Assembly: GCA_943788815.1 (NCBI GenBank)
Contig: CALSRS010000002.1
Location: forward strand, 369,062 to 433,061
Direction: 5' to 3'
Source of the DNA: an uncultured Gammaproteobacteria bacterium
GTDB lineage: Bacteria; Pseudomonadota; Gammaproteobacteria; Eutrophobiales; Eutrophobiaceae
DNA length: 64,000 bases
Shown here one piece after another: positions 8,958 through 22,555 of this stretch. Numbering within the stretch: the first letter of the stretch is position 1; each line of letters begins with the position of its first letter. A program made the translations under genes and the position numbers. The notes beneath the pieces are model-generated. The model was not told where the DNA came from and searched no databases. It was given only the letters and a program-made list of their open reading frames with translations.

Positions 8958-11093
8958 TCAGAAAGATCCGCTAATAGTCAGTCCAACCTCAATACCATCC
9001 TTGCGGTGCTGAAGCTGTCTGAAATCTAAAAGTGATATATCCCTTTGGCCGGTAAAGCGGCTTCGTGTTCTTCTTTCAGTCATGTTGGTGACATTATGTA
9101 CATCTATTCGCGTTTTGATACCAAACCAACGGGTGGTCTCAATGAAGAGATTGATTAAGGGGTCTTTGTCCCGCAGGTCCAGTTCATCCACTTTAAATAC
9201 TGGTAGGTCTGCCTCCAGAGTCATGTCCCAGCCCCAGGCGACACGTATTTCTTCAAAGTCCTGCCTAAAGTCGATCACGGCAACATATTCATTATCTGTA
9301 TCAAATATACTTTGTGAAGATGCGGTTATAATTGTCGCGTTTAATACCCTATTCAATCCAGTGACGGGATCTACCACGGTAGAATCCTGCCATTTTAGGT
9401 TTATATCCAGTCGGCCATTGTGCAAGCCCATCCAGTCCAGCTCTGCCGTTCCTTCAAAACGGAGTCCCCATCGACGCGCATCACCAATATTACCGGGCGC
9501 CTCTGCTGTTGCTAGGGGGATCAGATCTTGCACATCATCTATCCAATGATGGAACAAGGTGATTTTAAAGACATTCTCTTGTCCAAAACGGCGCTCATAC
9601 CCCACTTCGGTTTTCCAGGTGGTTTCTGGTCTTAAGTTTGGATTTCCCAAAGCGACATCGTCATCAGAAAATAAACTGAAACTAATATAATCAGTAAAGC
9701 GCAATTGGGCGACTTCCCTGGCCACCCTGATGCGCGCGCGCATAGATTCATCTGGTGTATAGCTTAGCTCTGCATGGGGTTTGAGAAAGTTTAAATTTTG
9801 TTCGGTATCTTGATCACCTAATGTGGTCAATTTTGAGACTTCAAAACCCAATCCATAATCCAGCTCATAATCACCTAATGCCCAAATATCTTTTATCAAA
9901 AAATCACCACGGGTTTCTTTAATGGTGGTGTTTTCGCCAGGGACAAAAACCGTTACGGCTCCAGCGCCTGTATCGGTGGTTTGGTCCACCTTATTGGCCA
10001 CCTCGTTATAGGCGGCTTCCAGTGTAAAGCGCAAATTATGGGAATCGATAGCGGAATACTCAAATTCAGTCCTTAGGATGCCTTCTTTTTCAATTTGATT
10101 TGATACTCTCATTTTTTCTTCAGTGAGATTTTCATCAGGATCAAAACTACGCTCTGTCGCCGTTTCATCTTCGTTTTCACGCGTAGCAAAAACCAGAAAC
10201 GTGCCTTTTAAAAACTCGGACAGGTTACGCTCCGCAATCAGGCCGGCTTCAAACTGAATTTCACCGGTATCGGTAAATAAGACTTCACTGCGAGTACGTG
10301 ACCCGGGGATCTGCGGTGTACGTAATGACAAAAAGTCTTCGCCACCTTCTTGTATTCCAAACTGTGATGCCCAGGTATAAAGGGTTTCATCCACCCATTT
10401 GGATGCGGTTAGATCAAAATTTGCCTCAAACTCTCGTTCATTTCCATCTTCCAGCCGTTTTTCTGTCAATGCATTGTTAATATCTCGGATTTCTTCTCGA
10501 TTACGATCACTTTCTGCCACCCGAAATACATCCAGGCCTGCGTTATAATCAATACCGTTCCAATTATCGGCAATTGAAATATTAGTAAAGATGGGAACAG
10601 GTTCCATGTCAAAATTCTTATAGCCACTAAATGCCCATCGCACAGCCGCTGGTACATCCGTTTTTAATACCACGTTGGCGACCTCAGGCTCTCCTTGCAT
10701 TTCAATATTACGCACAGGACCTCTGATCAACTCGATTTTTTCTACCTGGTTTGCCGGGATACGGTCCAGTAAAGAAGGAACAGTTACCCGCTTGCTACTG
10801 GGCCTTCGTCCATTTACCAACACATTGCCGGTATCTGACCCATAACCTCGAAGTTCGCCACTAATGGACATCAAAAATCCTGGTAGCTGCTCCAACATAT
10901 CCAGGGCGGAATTGGGTTGAAAACGATTAAAGAAGGACGCCGTATAGGTAACGACATTTTCTTCTTCCATGACTCCTTCCATTGATCCGGTCTGATCTGA
11001 AGGAGGTGGGGTTTGTGAATAACTGGTATTGGAAAACGAAATAAGCATAACGATGAAGCAGATGTGAATCACGTAATTTGAATTTTGGTACAC
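8958..11093 (-). CDS. TonB-dependent outer membrane receptor (paralogue 1)
   Basis: A GTG at 11093 is 6 bases after GGAG and gives a clean signal peptide (ending NTSYSQ); the TTG at 11105 lies inside the ribosome site. A possible TonB box is ENVVTYTA, followed by a plug domain (ALDMLEQLPGF, VLVNGRRPSSK, RIPANQVEKIELIRGP) and a beta-barrel ending in the usual C-terminal Phe (LTISGSF). About 711 residues. It is clearly related to the receptor at 20414-22555, for example in FKITLFHHWIDDV and GNIGDARRWGLRFEG. The substrate is unknown. It would be energised by the TonB operon at 45-50 kb. Transcription is monocistronic and divergent from the GrlR-like gene. Confidence 0.93.
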   Translation of the reverse strand: MYQNSNYVIHICFIVMLISFSNTSYSQTPPPSDQTGSMEGVMEEENVVTYTASFFNRFQPNSALDMLEQLPGFLMSISGELRGYGSDTGNVLVNGRRPSSKRVTVPSLLDRIPANQVEKIELIRGPVRNIEMQGEPEVANVVLKTDVPAAVRWAFSGYKNFDMEPVPIFTNISIADNWNGIDYNAGLDVFRVAESDRNREEIRDINNALTEKRLEDGNEREFEANFDLTASKWVDETLYTWASQFGIQEGGEDFLSLRTPQIPGSRTRSEVLFTDTGEIQFEAGLIAERNLSEFLKGTFLVFATRENEDETATERSFDPDENLTEEKMRVSNQIEKEGILRTEFEYSAIDSHNLRFTLEAAYNEVANKVDQTTDTGAGAVTVFVPGENTTIKETRGDFLIKDIWALGDYELDYGLGFEVSKLTTLGDQDTEQNLNFLKPHAELSYTPDESMRARIRVAREVAQLRFTDYISFSLFSDDDVALGNPNLRPETTWKTEVGYERRFGQENVFKITLFHHWIDDVQDLIPLATAEAPGNIGDARRWGLRFEGTAELDWMGLHNGRLDINLKWQDSTVVDPVTGLNRVLNATIITASSQSIFDTDNEYVAVIDFRQDFEEIRVAWGWDMTLEADLPVFKVDELDLRDKDPLINLFIETTRWFGIKTRIDVHNVTNMTERRTRSRFTGQRDISLLDFRQLQHRKDGIEVGLTISGSF

Positions 11094-11303
11094 GTTGCTC
11101 TCCAATAAGGTACAGCTTGAAATTTCAGGTAATAATCAGTTATTTGCAGTATCAAGTCAAAGAAAATAATCGTGCCCATGCGCCTATAAATGAATGTGCA
11201 AAAATAAGTCAAATCACTAGATGAATTATTCTTTCCATATAAATTCTGCCAGTATCAAATTTCAGCTTCAGATGAAAATATTGCATAATTTTTTTCGCAA
11301 TTC

Positions 11304-11802: not shown

Positions 11803-13197
11803 TCATTCCCAGTCAACTGTAAAATCTGGACTCTGATAGGCCTTCTCACCACCGAGTATGGTCATAATCACTTTATTGTTACGAATTTCCCGATCCTCCC
11901 CTGAGAGAAAATCTTTGTCGATAACCATAAGGTCTGCATACTTACCGACTTCAATACTCCCTACCTTGGTATCAGCCAGCAAGAATTTGGATGATTGCTG
12001 CGTCATTAACTTAAGCGCGGTAACACGGTCTACACCCTCCTGGGCGCCGTACACAGTTCCGGTTTCACCAGCTTCATCAGGTGGCCAACCATCTTCTGCA
12101 ACTTCCCGGTTCACATAAGTATCAAGTATAGCAAAATAGGTTCCTGGAGATGGCTCGTAAATCTCAGCCTCCCCAACTACATTTACACCTTGTTCAATCA
12201 GACTCCGAACAGGTGCAAGAAATTTCATGCCCGGTTCACCATATCGTTGCAATATTAATTTTGGCGATATATCTAGCGATCGCCTGACGTTAACCGGGAC
12301 AAATAAATTATATTTCTTCAGATTTTCAATGATGTCCGGCTCGGTCCCCACCATATTTCCATGAGCAAACCCATGTCGGGCATTACGCACATACTCCAGT
12401 GTTAATAATCCTGGATTGCGTAGCATTTGTTCTTCCAATTTCTGTACAAATAACCTTAAGCCATGACTGCCAATGGCATGGATGCCTGCCCATCGCCAAC
12501 CAGAACGCAGGCCACGCATTAATGCGATCACAGTAGGCGATTCAAAGTCTGGACAATTTTCCAAAATCATCTTTACCTTTTGAAAATCGGCATGAGGTGC
12601 CGGCGCTAAATCATCACCAAGACAGGGTTGAGTTGGGCTGTCCCAATCTCCTTCACTACTCATTCCGTGTAACCATAGCCAGGGATTTGCTTCTATGGTT
12701 TGCCACATGGCACCAATATTTTCATACATGCCCAGTGATGCTTCTCGCGGTATCGCCTGCCGAGCGAGGTCAAAACTATATGCAAATCGCACGGGTAACT
12801 TACCTTCATTTCTTAGCAGCAAATTATAGGCAGTTACCTGTTGGTTGGTATTCAGTCTGGAACCAAAGGTAGTCATCCCGGAAGTAAGATAATAATCACG
12901 TGCCAAAACTTTAAAACCTTCTCCATATTGAACCGGTGAAGGTTGTTCTCGCAATAATTGCTGAAAATGTGCTCGTAATGGCGTGGGAACCAGGATACTC
13001 CTATCTCCGGGATTCTCGATACCGCGTGGTTGATTATCAACCTGCTCAACAAAGTCAGGCCACATTTCCATAAGTTCTTCCATAGCCCTTTGGTTAAACA
13101 AAATGACGCCATTGCTGGCCTGCGTCCAACCAAGTATCAAACAGAAGATAGAAACATTAAAAATGGTTTTAAATTTTAAATTAATTAAGGATGTCAT
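11803..13197 (-). CDS. Amidohydrolase, C-terminal half as a separate exported protein
   Basis: The protein starts at ATG 13197, where GAGG overlapping the previous stop codon (TGAGGA) serves as ribosome site, and has its own signal peptide (ending LILGWTQAS). About 464 residues correspond to the second half of YtcJ-like amidohydrolases: YYLTSGMTTFGS, the histidine motif GIHAIGSHGLRLF, ARHGFAHGNMVG, and the C-terminal VGSIEVGKYADLMVIDKDFL with MTILGGEKAYQSP. The N-terminal HxH motif is missing from this protein and is found in the next gene upstream. It therefore probably needs that partner to form a metal site. The frame is intact over its whole length. Confidence 0.85.
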   Translation of the reverse strand: MTSLINLKFKTIFNVSIFCLILGWTQASNGVILFNQRAMEELMEMWPDFVEQVDNQPRGIENPGDRSILVPTPLRAHFQQLLREQPSPVQYGEGFKVLARDYYLTSGMTTFGSRLNTNQQVTAYNLLLRNEGKLPVRFAYSFDLARQAIPREASLGMYENIGAMWQTIEANPWLWLHGMSSEGDWDSPTQPCLGDDLAPAPHADFQKVKMILENCPDFESPTVIALMRGLRSGWRWAGIHAIGSHGLRLFVQKLEEQMLRNPGLLTLEYVRNARHGFAHGNMVGTEPDIIENLKKYNLFVPVNVRRSLDISPKLILQRYGEPGMKFLAPVRSLIEQGVNVVGEAEIYEPSPGTYFAILDTYVNREVAEDGWPPDEAGETGTVYGAQEGVDRVTALKLMTQQSSKFLLADTKVGSIEVGKYADLMVIDKDFLSGEDREIRNNKVIMTILGGEKAYQSPDFTVDWE

Positions 13198-13207
13198 TGT
13201 TCGATCC

Positions 13208-14008
13208 TCATTCAGATATTTCAATTAATGGTGTGGATATCGGATCACCATGGGCATCCACTGTGATGTGATACCATACATTTTTTTGCTTTTCTGCCGC
13301 GCGGCTTTCTGGCGTCAGGCCTTCACCTGTTTTTCCAAAAATTTGCTCACCACTGGTCAGCATAAAAGGGTAATCAGGGACAATCTCGGTTATATCTGAC
13401 TTTGATATTCGCACATCGTCCATTTTTCTTGCACTCATCAGGGTTGCCACATCGGATGAAGAAGAAAAACCAAACTCAGGTACATTGACAAGTGAAATAC
13501 TAATCCAGTCATCTGGCCCAGGCTCTGCATTGGCCAACAAGAGTTCCATAGCCTGGGCTACCTTGGCCATGGTTTCATCGGGAGTGGCTGCCACATCCAT
13601 TCTGAGATCAAAACCGGTTGGCGTACTTCGAAGCCCGAACATTTGTCTGGCAATGCTTTCTGTTTTTCCCATGGGGTGGGTATGCGATTCTACGATGCCT
13701 GGCAAGACCATTTTACCTTGTAGATCGACAACATCCGTTTCAGGGCCAGCAAGTGACAGTATCTCCTGGTTCGTGCCCAGTGCAAAGATGACATTATCTT
13801 TAACTGCTAATGCTTCAACAATAGTGCCGGGGTCTGCATTTAAATCATGATTATCTAAAGTCACTATTACGGCATTCTTAAATATAGTGTCCGGATAATC
13901 GATTAATTGGGCAGGTATATTTTGGGCCGTCAATTCTAAGGTCTGCAAAAACAACAACCATATGAAAAAGATTTTGGTAAATCGAATTAATTTGACATCA
14001 CGCAACAT
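13208..14008 (-). CDS. Amidohydrolase, N-terminal half as a separate exported protein
   Basis: This 266-residue protein has a signal peptide (ending TLELTAQ) and the start of the amidohydrolase fold: a small beta-sandwich (FKNAVIVTLDNHDLNADPGT...VEALAVKDNVIFALGTNQEI) and the first barrel strand with the metal motif in LPGIVESHTHPMG. It stops around the middle of the barrel, where intact relatives in this window (16480-18291, 27362-29374) continue. Its TGA at 13208-13210 overlaps the ribosome site of the C-terminal half. Both halves carry signal peptides, so the enzyme may be assembled from two chains in the periplasm. GGAGG precedes the ATG at 14008. Confidence 0.85.
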   Translation of the reverse strand: MLRDVKLIRFTKIFFIWLLFLQTLELTAQNIPAQLIDYPDTIFKNAVIVTLDNHDLNADPGTIVEALAVKDNVIFALGTNQEILSLAGPETDVVDLQGKMVLPGIVESHTHPMGKTESIARQMFGLRSTPTGFDLRMDVAATPDETMAKVAQAMELLLANAEPGPDDWISISLVNVPEFGFSSSSDVATLMSARKMDDVRISKSDITEIVPDYPFMLTSGEQIFGKTGEGLTPESRAAEKQKNVWYHITVDAHGDPISTPLIEISE

Positions 14009-20413: not shown

Positions 20414-22555
20414 TTAAAAAGTACCGCTGATTTTAAACAACAACCTCGTGCCATTTCTACCTTCACGATGTTCACGTTGGTCTAGTGGTGACAGGTCCCG
20501 TTCTGCTACATAGATAAACCTATCACGGACCTGTATATTATTAAAAAGATTTTGCCCTTCCAAAGCAAGCTTTAAACCAAACCATTGGGTAGTTTCTATG
20601 AAAGCATGAAAATCAATACCTTCACTAAACAGATCTAATTCGTCGGCTTTAAATACCGGGCGATCAGCTCGTTCTATCATGCTCCATCCCCAGGAAACCC
20701 TTGCTGATTCTATGTCCTGGCGGAAATCAAACGAAATAGCATAGTCATTTTCATCTTCGAAGAGAACATCCTGACGATAACCACCCAGTGCAGACAGTAC
20801 CCGGTTATTCATGGTGACGGGATCGACAACCGTGGAATCCTGAAGTCGCAGCTTGAACTCCATACGTGCGCCTGACAGACCTGTCCAATCCAGTGGTGCC
20901 GTAGTCTCAAAGATTCCTCCCCATCTTCTGGCATCGCCAATATTTCCGGTGGCTTCAAATGTGGGAGTTAAGGGAAGAAAGTCCAGGGTATCGGTAATCC
21001 AGTGATGAAAGGCGGTGATTTTAACGACACCAATTGACCCATACCTGTACTCGTGACTAAGCTCTGCCACCCAGGTCCTGTCAGGGCGAAGGTCAGAATT
21101 ACCAAGCGTGGTACTATTATCTTCAAATATCGTCGCCGATACAAAATCACGAAAGTCCAATTGCGAGACTTCCTTTTCAAACCGAAAACGCGTCTGACTT
21201 CCCTGTTTCGGCGAATAGGTCAACACTATCCTGGGTTTAAAATAATTAAAACTGCGTTTCTGATCAGCATCACCGGTTTGAGAAATAGTAGAAAGCTCAT
21301 AGTTAATTCCATATTCAAGATTGAATTTGCCCATGCTCCAGGTGTCTCTGAAAAGAAAGTTCCAGCGAGCCTCGTCTACTTTGGTATTTCCACCTGGCAC
21401 ATCGATGACAACAGGTCCGGCACCGATATCATCGGTAAACACCAGTCTGTTATCCAGGATATTATCAGCCCGCTCAATATCAAACTGAATGGAATGCTTG
21501 TCCCATCTCGACCAGGCCAATTCAATACGGCTTATCAATTCTTTCTGAATTGTGTTTTCTTCTTCCAACTGGGCCCGTACCTGTTCATCATCTGCATTGA
21601 GGTCAATTTGTGAACCGGAGGGATCCCGACCAAGCCGTGAATACAACAGGATAGCCTTACCCTGTAAATCATCTAACAATGACCTTTCCGCATCAATACC
21701 CAACTCGAGCACGCTGAGGTCGCGTTTGGTATCGAAAATACGGGTCGTATTGTTATTGCCTGGGGGCTGAGGAATACGGGTTGAGGTCGTTACCAGTTGA
21801 CGAGGCAAGTTTGCTGCTCTGGAATTAAAGTTTACGAATGTTTTTCCCACCCAGGTCGATGCATTAAAATAGCCGTTGATGTCATATCCCCTGGCTCTAT
21901 CTGCATCATCACGAATTTCAAACAGTCTATCGTTTTCATCAAAGCGATGAATGACACCCGGATCACCATAACGTGTCCTGCGATAATCCATTCCCACGTT
22001 ATATTCAATTTCACCCCAACTATCTGACATGGAGATACTGCCAAAGGGCGTAATACCATAATCTGTATTGACCCTGACGTAAGTTTGCCAGCGAACTGCT
22101 GCTTCAGTATTTTCCTTTAAGATTATGTTAATAACCTCTGTTGAACCCAATAAGTCAATGTCCCTGACCTTGACACGGATTAATTCAATCCGATCTACCT
22201 GATCGGCAGGAATACGGCTTAAGATTGCCGAAGGTGAATCCTGTTTAGAACTGGGTCGCCGGTCATTAATCAAAATATTACCGGCCGCCCCACCATAACC
22301 CCGCACATCCGCACCAAAAACAGCGGTATCCCCACCATCATTCAGGTTAAATCCGGGCACCCTGGCCGCCATGTCAAATGCAGTATTTGGCTGATACCTA
22401 CGAAAAAATTCGGCATCATAGGTAACCACACCATCCTGCTCATTTTGATTACTTATTTGGGAAGGACTGCTACCCTGAGCCATAGTCTGGATATTTCCCA
22501 CTACGAGGCAAAAAATGAAACAGATAACATAAGTTGGTAAGGGTCGAAAATTCAT
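20414..22555 (-). CDS. TonB-dependent outer membrane receptor (paralogue 2)
   Basis: This 713-residue receptor starts with a signal peptide (ending IQTMAQ), then DGVVTYDAEFFRRYQPNTAFDMAARVPGF (TonB box and plug), ILINDRRPSSK and RIPADQVDRIELIRVKVRD, followed by a barrel that ends LFKISGTF. Most segments align with the receptor at 8958-11093, for example FHHWITDTLDFLPL and GNIGDARRWGGIFE, so the two are dispersed duplicates. The usual RGP motif of the plug is RVKV here. It is divergent from the cytochrome/Vgb-like gene and may supply its substrate, but that is inference. Confidence 0.93.
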   Translation of the reverse strand: MNFRPLPTYVICFIFCLVVGNIQTMAQGSSPSQISNQNEQDGVVTYDAEFFRRYQPNTAFDMAARVPGFNLNDGGDTAVFGADVRGYGGAAGNILINDRRPSSKQDSPSAILSRIPADQVDRIELIRVKVRDIDLLGSTEVINIILKENTEAAVRWQTYVRVNTDYGITPFGSISMSDSWGEIEYNVGMDYRRTRYGDPGVIHRFDENDRLFEIRDDADRARGYDINGYFNASTWVGKTFVNFNSRAANLPRQLVTTSTRIPQPPGNNNTTRIFDTKRDLSVLELGIDAERSLLDDLQGKAILLYSRLGRDPSGSQIDLNADDEQVRAQLEEENTIQKELISRIELAWSRWDKHSIQFDIERADNILDNRLVFTDDIGAGPVVIDVPGGNTKVDEARWNFLFRDTWSMGKFNLEYGINYELSTISQTGDADQKRSFNYFKPRIVLTYSPKQGSQTRFRFEKEVSQLDFRDFVSATIFEDNSTTLGNSDLRPDRTWVAELSHEYRYGSIGVVKITAFHHWITDTLDFLPLTPTFEATGNIGDARRWGGIFETTAPLDWTGLSGARMEFKLRLQDSTVVDPVTMNNRVLSALGGYRQDVLFEDENDYAISFDFRQDIESARVSWGWSMIERADRPVFKADELDLFSEGIDFHAFIETTQWFGLKLALEGQNLFNNIQVRDRFIYVAERDLSPLDQREHREGRNGTRLLFKISGTF

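Follow-up and report, generated by a model that had tools for sequence, protein, structure and literature searches.

A conserved split of an amidohydrolase-like protein into two adjacent genes, each with a signal-peptide-like start, in one gammaproteobacterial genus

Do two adjacent genes that each carry one half of an amidohydrolase-like protein encode the two chains of one exported protein, or are they the pieces of a single broken gene? The question is raised by a gene pair in the window (the whole stretch of DNA analysed, 64,000 nucleotides of an uncultured gammaproteobacterium of the family Eutrophobiaceae). The N-half gene (13208..14008, minus strand) is an intact frame of 266 amino acids with an HTH motif at residues 109-111; it is taken here to comprise the first sandwich strands, barrel strand 1 with the HxH and the first part of the inserted region. 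The C-half frame, which begins at a TTG (13224) in the list of open reading frames, is also intact (11803-13224, minus strand, 473 amino acids); it presumably comprises the rest of the inserted region, the remaining barrel and the closing sandwich strands. The order at the junction is the N-half stop TGA, then GGATCGAACA, then the ATG of the C-half, which lies 10 nt past the stop. A Shine-Dalgarno-like GAGG spans this TGA (13206..13210, minus strand), in agreement with the earlier note, which had placed a ribosome site over the first stop. An ATG 10 nt past the N stop is common to the window and to loci L001 and L002; in L001, L002, L011, L059, L063 and one L012 pair, an ATG 10-11 nt past the stop stands behind a G-rich site. 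The other L012 pair has several candidate ATGs for its C-half, and the gap between the N and C genes is longer in lineage II (defined below). The real start of the C-half is probably the conserved ATG at 13197 (gene 11803..13197, minus strand) and not the TTG at 13224. With this start the N and C genes do not overlap: of the two overlapping, intact genes first described, the intactness holds, both frames being open, but the overlap does not. Translation of the N and C genes may be coupled in lineage I.

A signal-peptide-like start was found on both halves, as had been claimed. Signal-peptide-like refers to the best 11-residue hydropathy of a start, compared with 986 control segments from mature C-halves (maximum 2.09). 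In the window, the N-half start (about residues 1-28; 13925..14008, minus strand) has a value of 2.15 and the C-half start (27 residues, ending in WTQA; 13117..13197, minus strand) a value of 2.65; both ends were placed by eye. Among the 19 C genes found, the one cut by a contig end was left out; the complete C-half starts (2.44-3.55) are above every control in 18/18. N-half starts (2.15-3.0) are above every control in 12/13. The thirteenth N gene, L012:3139-3774, is interrupted by an in-frame stop shortly after the signal peptide. It is paired with an intact C gene, and 4 kb off there is an intact N gene of 91% identity; an interrupted N gene beside an intact C-half fits a sharing of N chains. 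The C-half signal peptide changes fast in sequence and keeps its hydrophobicity: between the window and L002, its identity is 28% over 29 codons (dN/dS 0.6). A hydrophobic stretch in all the C starts measured would also be found if the C-half signal stayed uncleaved and served as an inner-membrane anchor for the C chain, on which a soluble N chain would dock. However, most C starts end with a small residue, any residue and Ala directly before the conserved part, which looks cleavable, and such an anchor is considered very improbable.

The test set beforehand for the proposal was that the split be conserved together with both signal peptides, and this was found. All genomes of the genus (5/5) have a split N gene, and N and C genes lie next to each other in 4/5; in the fifth (G004), the contig ends 94 bp behind the N gene (L066). 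Together the five genomes contain 13 N-half genes and 19 C-half genes, and at 12 loci the two are neighbours: five in G000 (the genome of the window, whose split N-halves number 5 and C-halves 8), two in G001, three in G002 and two in G003. C pieces at two contig ends of G002 (C126, C79) are counted as one gene. Two loci from a pattern scan of contigs are contigs of G001 and G002 and are not counted as further genomes. The leftover C gene (G003, L064) starts 66 bp from a contig end. The split genes form two lineages that are about 40% identical: lineage I, which includes the window pair, and lineage II (L014, L058, L060, L065). An array of one N gene followed by four C genes is found in two species (L011, L059); the C genes of these two arrays match in order (90, 89, 90 and 85% identity, versus 60-69% off the diagonal).

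The nearest single-chain relatives (14 rows) come from the same genomes, are 33-41% identical to the split genes in the C part and have about 690-750 amino acids, except two with incomplete starts. Two paralogues in the window (16480, 27362), previously used to place the split, are intact as described, but with only 27-30% identity they were rejected as the best unsplit comparison; other parts of the genome encode the closest single-chain relatives. The two paralogues serve as outgroup rows in the C tree (see below). The N profile and then the C profile matched in all 14 single-chain rows. Unsplit homologues without any sequence between the halves, which the earlier note would have counted against the split, are not what was found: 53-65 residues separate the matched N and C stretches in these relatives. 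The N match ends at position 247-254 of 258 in 11/14 rows, so that nearly the whole linker is extra; it ends at 220 of 258 in L010, L013 and L082, where only about 20-25 residues are extra. No signal-peptide-like stretch was found by hydropathy in 13 of these linkers (0.99 at most). The split genes carry a stop and a signal-peptide-like stretch where the single-chain genes carry the linker. In the amidohydrolase superfamily, barrel strand 1 carries the HxH and the two ends of the chain form a composite sandwich; the joint would therefore lie in the inserted region, after strand 1 and before strand 2. In the larger single-chain subgroup, the linker is rich in His and Cys and ends with CSHR; most split C-halves, except those of the window type, open with (A/S/G)HR behind the signal peptide. 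The His/Cys-rich linker (e.g. HAHLxQGCxWxExxPHHxQHCSHR) is found in L015, L016, L017, L018, L080, L086, L088, L089 and L093; absent from the split members, it could be a metal-binding or disulfide loop.

A frameshift, an assembly error or a young pseudogene of one long gene would leave two neighbouring genes, N before C, that jointly cover one known family. The conservation speaks decisively against this origin, since several assemblies show the same split, as do two lineages that have diverged. A signal-peptide-like stretch that replaces an unmatched linker is not the expected product of an indel either; the argument that a simple frameshift would not create a second signal peptide is thus upheld. 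Low pN relative to pS also argues against it, and this origin was rejected, its probability being negligible. In all comparisons (13/13), pN is well below pS. In the 7 comparisons with a computable dS, dN/dS is 0.027-0.081; these values are rough because dS (1.8-2.3) is near saturation. Synonymous changes are saturated in the other 6/13, including all four comparisons of the window pair (pN 0.075-0.275). The split arrangement is old and selected.

Trees of the two halves were built with single-chain rows as outgroups. In the N tree (32 rows, without the single-chain rows L016 and L091, whose starts are incomplete), the N-halves of both split lineages form one clade (99/97). In the C tree (42 rows), the C-halves of both lineages form one clade (92/96, which misses the star threshold of the tool). 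Single-chain rows lie outside the clade in each tree, and both trees carry long-branch warnings. The 17 lineage-I rows of the C tree stand for 14 genes, with three of the rows being shortened copies; this tree omits the C gene of G002 that a contig end cuts. AU tests marginally reject the four alternatives in which one of the split lineages is joined to one of the single-chain groups (p 0.048, 0.040, 0.013 and 0.034). The simplest reading is a single fission before lineages I and II parted; the conserved split with two export signals is real and probably of single origin. The split may have been born by tandem copying of the full gene followed by complementary loss: one copy would have lost its C part, and the other its N part while retaining the signal peptide.

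By sequence, the pair is assigned to the Amidohydro_3 / YtcJ-like family through its C-half, which gives a clear match to Pfam Amidohydro_3 (82.4 bits, cut-off 29.7); the N-half alone reaches 25 bits, below this cut-off, over profile positions 1-25. Searches of NCBIfam gave matches far below cut-off only. A PDB sequence search with the joined N+C sequence as query found 6 short matches (E from 3e-5 to 0.009), and one with the C profile found 1; the single-chain profile reached 3icj and 3igh, which were used for mapping ligands by eye. Predicted models of the single halves, made from a five-row alignment, are poor (mean pLDDT 38.2 for C and 40.0 for N). The HxH motif (H109 and H111 of the N-half; 13676..13684, minus strand) is invariant in the 7 N-halves aligned among the 13 found. 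In the C-half (numbered from the TTG), the invariant residues are H249 (12478..12480, minus strand), H288 (12361..12363, minus strand) and E352 (12169..12171, minus strand), the last lying 2 residues before the usual position of the beta-8 Asp; their invariance refers to 9 aligned C-halves and also to 21 split rows, of which 18 are genes and 3 are shortened copies. With the HxH in the N-halves and the two His and the Glu in the C-halves, a metal site would need both chains.

Two usual ligands are absent. No split, single-chain or outgroup row has a Lys in the column of the bridging carboxylated Lys; compared with 3icj in an alignment read by eye, the split rows have Gly at this position, as do the single-chain rows and nearly all outgroup rows. 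The position of the beta-8 Asp is not conserved in the split rows and in the nearest single-chain rows, and the Glu is found 2 residues earlier. The loss of Lys and Asp predates the split. Thus the sharing out of the His motifs over the two halves, as proposed by the earlier note, was recovered, but a standard active site was not. With the usual Lys and beta-8 Asp missing, the chemistry is uncertain, and hydrolysis may not be what the pair does; the putative active site is non-standard, and its chemistry may differ from that of known family members.

This loss would also suit halves that have drifted apart into separate roles, the C-half alone being a binding protein or an altered enzyme and the N-half a regulator or a metal carrier; the excess of C genes over N genes (19 versus 13) points the same way. 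Against such roles, the aligned N-halves all keep the HxH and the C-halves all keep two His, all C genes except one at a contig end belong to operons led by an N gene, and pN is low in both halves. Separate roles are considered unlikely, though less so than the membrane anchor discussed above. The best explanation, rated as likely from the sequences, is a split exported protein whose halves assemble as a periplasmic heterodimer. A single-chain exported amidohydrolase-like protein of the genus would have been split once into two genes; both chains would be exported through the inner membrane and pair up in the periplasm as a heterodimer. This heterodimer would rebuild the barrel and the composite sandwich, and the metal site would exist only in the complex. 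Where four C genes follow one N gene, several diversified C chains would have the N chain as their common subunit.

A SurA-like gene lies directly downstream of the last C gene in 5/9 lineage-I C ends (L011, L012, L059, L063, L064); the lineage-I ends without such a neighbour are those of the window pair and three others. Pfam SurA_N_3 is over cut-off in 3/5 of these neighbours and a PPIC domain is found in 2/5; judged by eye, the proteins are exported. A profile made from the five proteins found none beside the window pair, none in the 4 lineage-II loci and, over 0.8-1.7 kb of sequence downstream, none beside single-chain relatives (13 loci from 12 distinct regions). Where present in a split operon, the SurA-like protein may aid folding or assembly. 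The split protein would then be a modular exported enzyme, with one N subunit carrying the HxH, up to four C subunits, a dedicated SurA-like helper and several specificities; this version of the heterodimer is possible but clearly more doubtful than the heterodimer itself. Another protein (228-250 amino acids, probably exported), similar by eye between loci, follows all four lineage-II split pairs (L014:410-1126, L058:3303-4028, L060:3309-3995, L065:431-1183); the L014 copy has no Pfam match.

YtcJ-like amidohydrolases (PF07969; solved relatives 3icj and 3igh) have in common with the split pair the family match, the HxH with two later His, and export. They differ as single chains with the Lys and the beta-8 Asp; the split pair has two chains, Gly at the Lys position and no conserved Asp. 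The metalloBSH of Bilophila wadsworthia is a YtcJ-like enzyme, compared here by its published residues; activity was lost on changing any one of H110, H112, H441, H474, K373 and D583 to Ala (PMC13081902). The LacL and LacM proteins correspond to parts of LacZ. In lactobacilli, the LacLM beta-galactosidase is encoded by two overlapping genes, for the large and the small subunits of a heterodimer, and other lactic acid bacteria have one lacZ (PMC6412629). The likeness lies in neighbouring genes whose products match the N and C parts of what is a single chain in homologues. LacLM belongs to family GH2 and hydrolyses lactose inside the cell (PMC6412629), whereas each half of the split pair has a signal-peptide-like start. 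Searches of the open-licence literature, which leaves most subscription papers outside, brought up engineered half-barrels and LacLM, but no natural amidohydrolase that is divided within its barrel and has both halves exported separately. Urease (alpha, beta and gamma) is an enzyme of the amidohydrolase superfamily made of several chains, which are fused in some bacteria; its barrel is not known to be divided between chains, nor the enzyme to be exported. It resembles the split pair in having several chains and differs in that the pair would divide the barrel and has a predicted export signal on each half. If the halves assemble in the periplasm, the pair is a natural test bed for the recognition of barrel pieces outside the cytoplasm, and also for the birth and upkeep of a fission and for one piece that serves several partners; the single-chain relatives in the same genomes are a ready comparison.

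At the thresholds used, matches in the sets searched were confined to the genus. In the family, 5/53 genomes have a match, all of the same genus; the search of the order returned the same 53. The only match in the class set (1/369, profile search at E<=1e-50) and in the phylum set (1/398, E<=1e-40) is the genome of the window; both sets are samples, with at most 4 candidates scored per genome where shown, so a wider presence is possible. An N-half search of 58 relatives (E<=0.001) gave matches in 20; among the N-half matches listed, those outside the genus are at 1.3e-12 or weaker and in frames of single-chain size.

TonB-dependent receptors are found near amidohydrolase genes in the window (8958-11105) and in L011 (8414-9847), both by Pfam; another one in the window (20414-22555) is recognized by eye only. 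The 3.2 Mb of G000 encode some 40 amidohydrolase-like proteins (41 matches for the C-half, 39 for the N-half). N-half matches number 17-32 in the four other genomes of the genus and 0-13 in 32 other genomes of the family. This abundance of amidohydrolase-like genes is a lineage-specific expansion.
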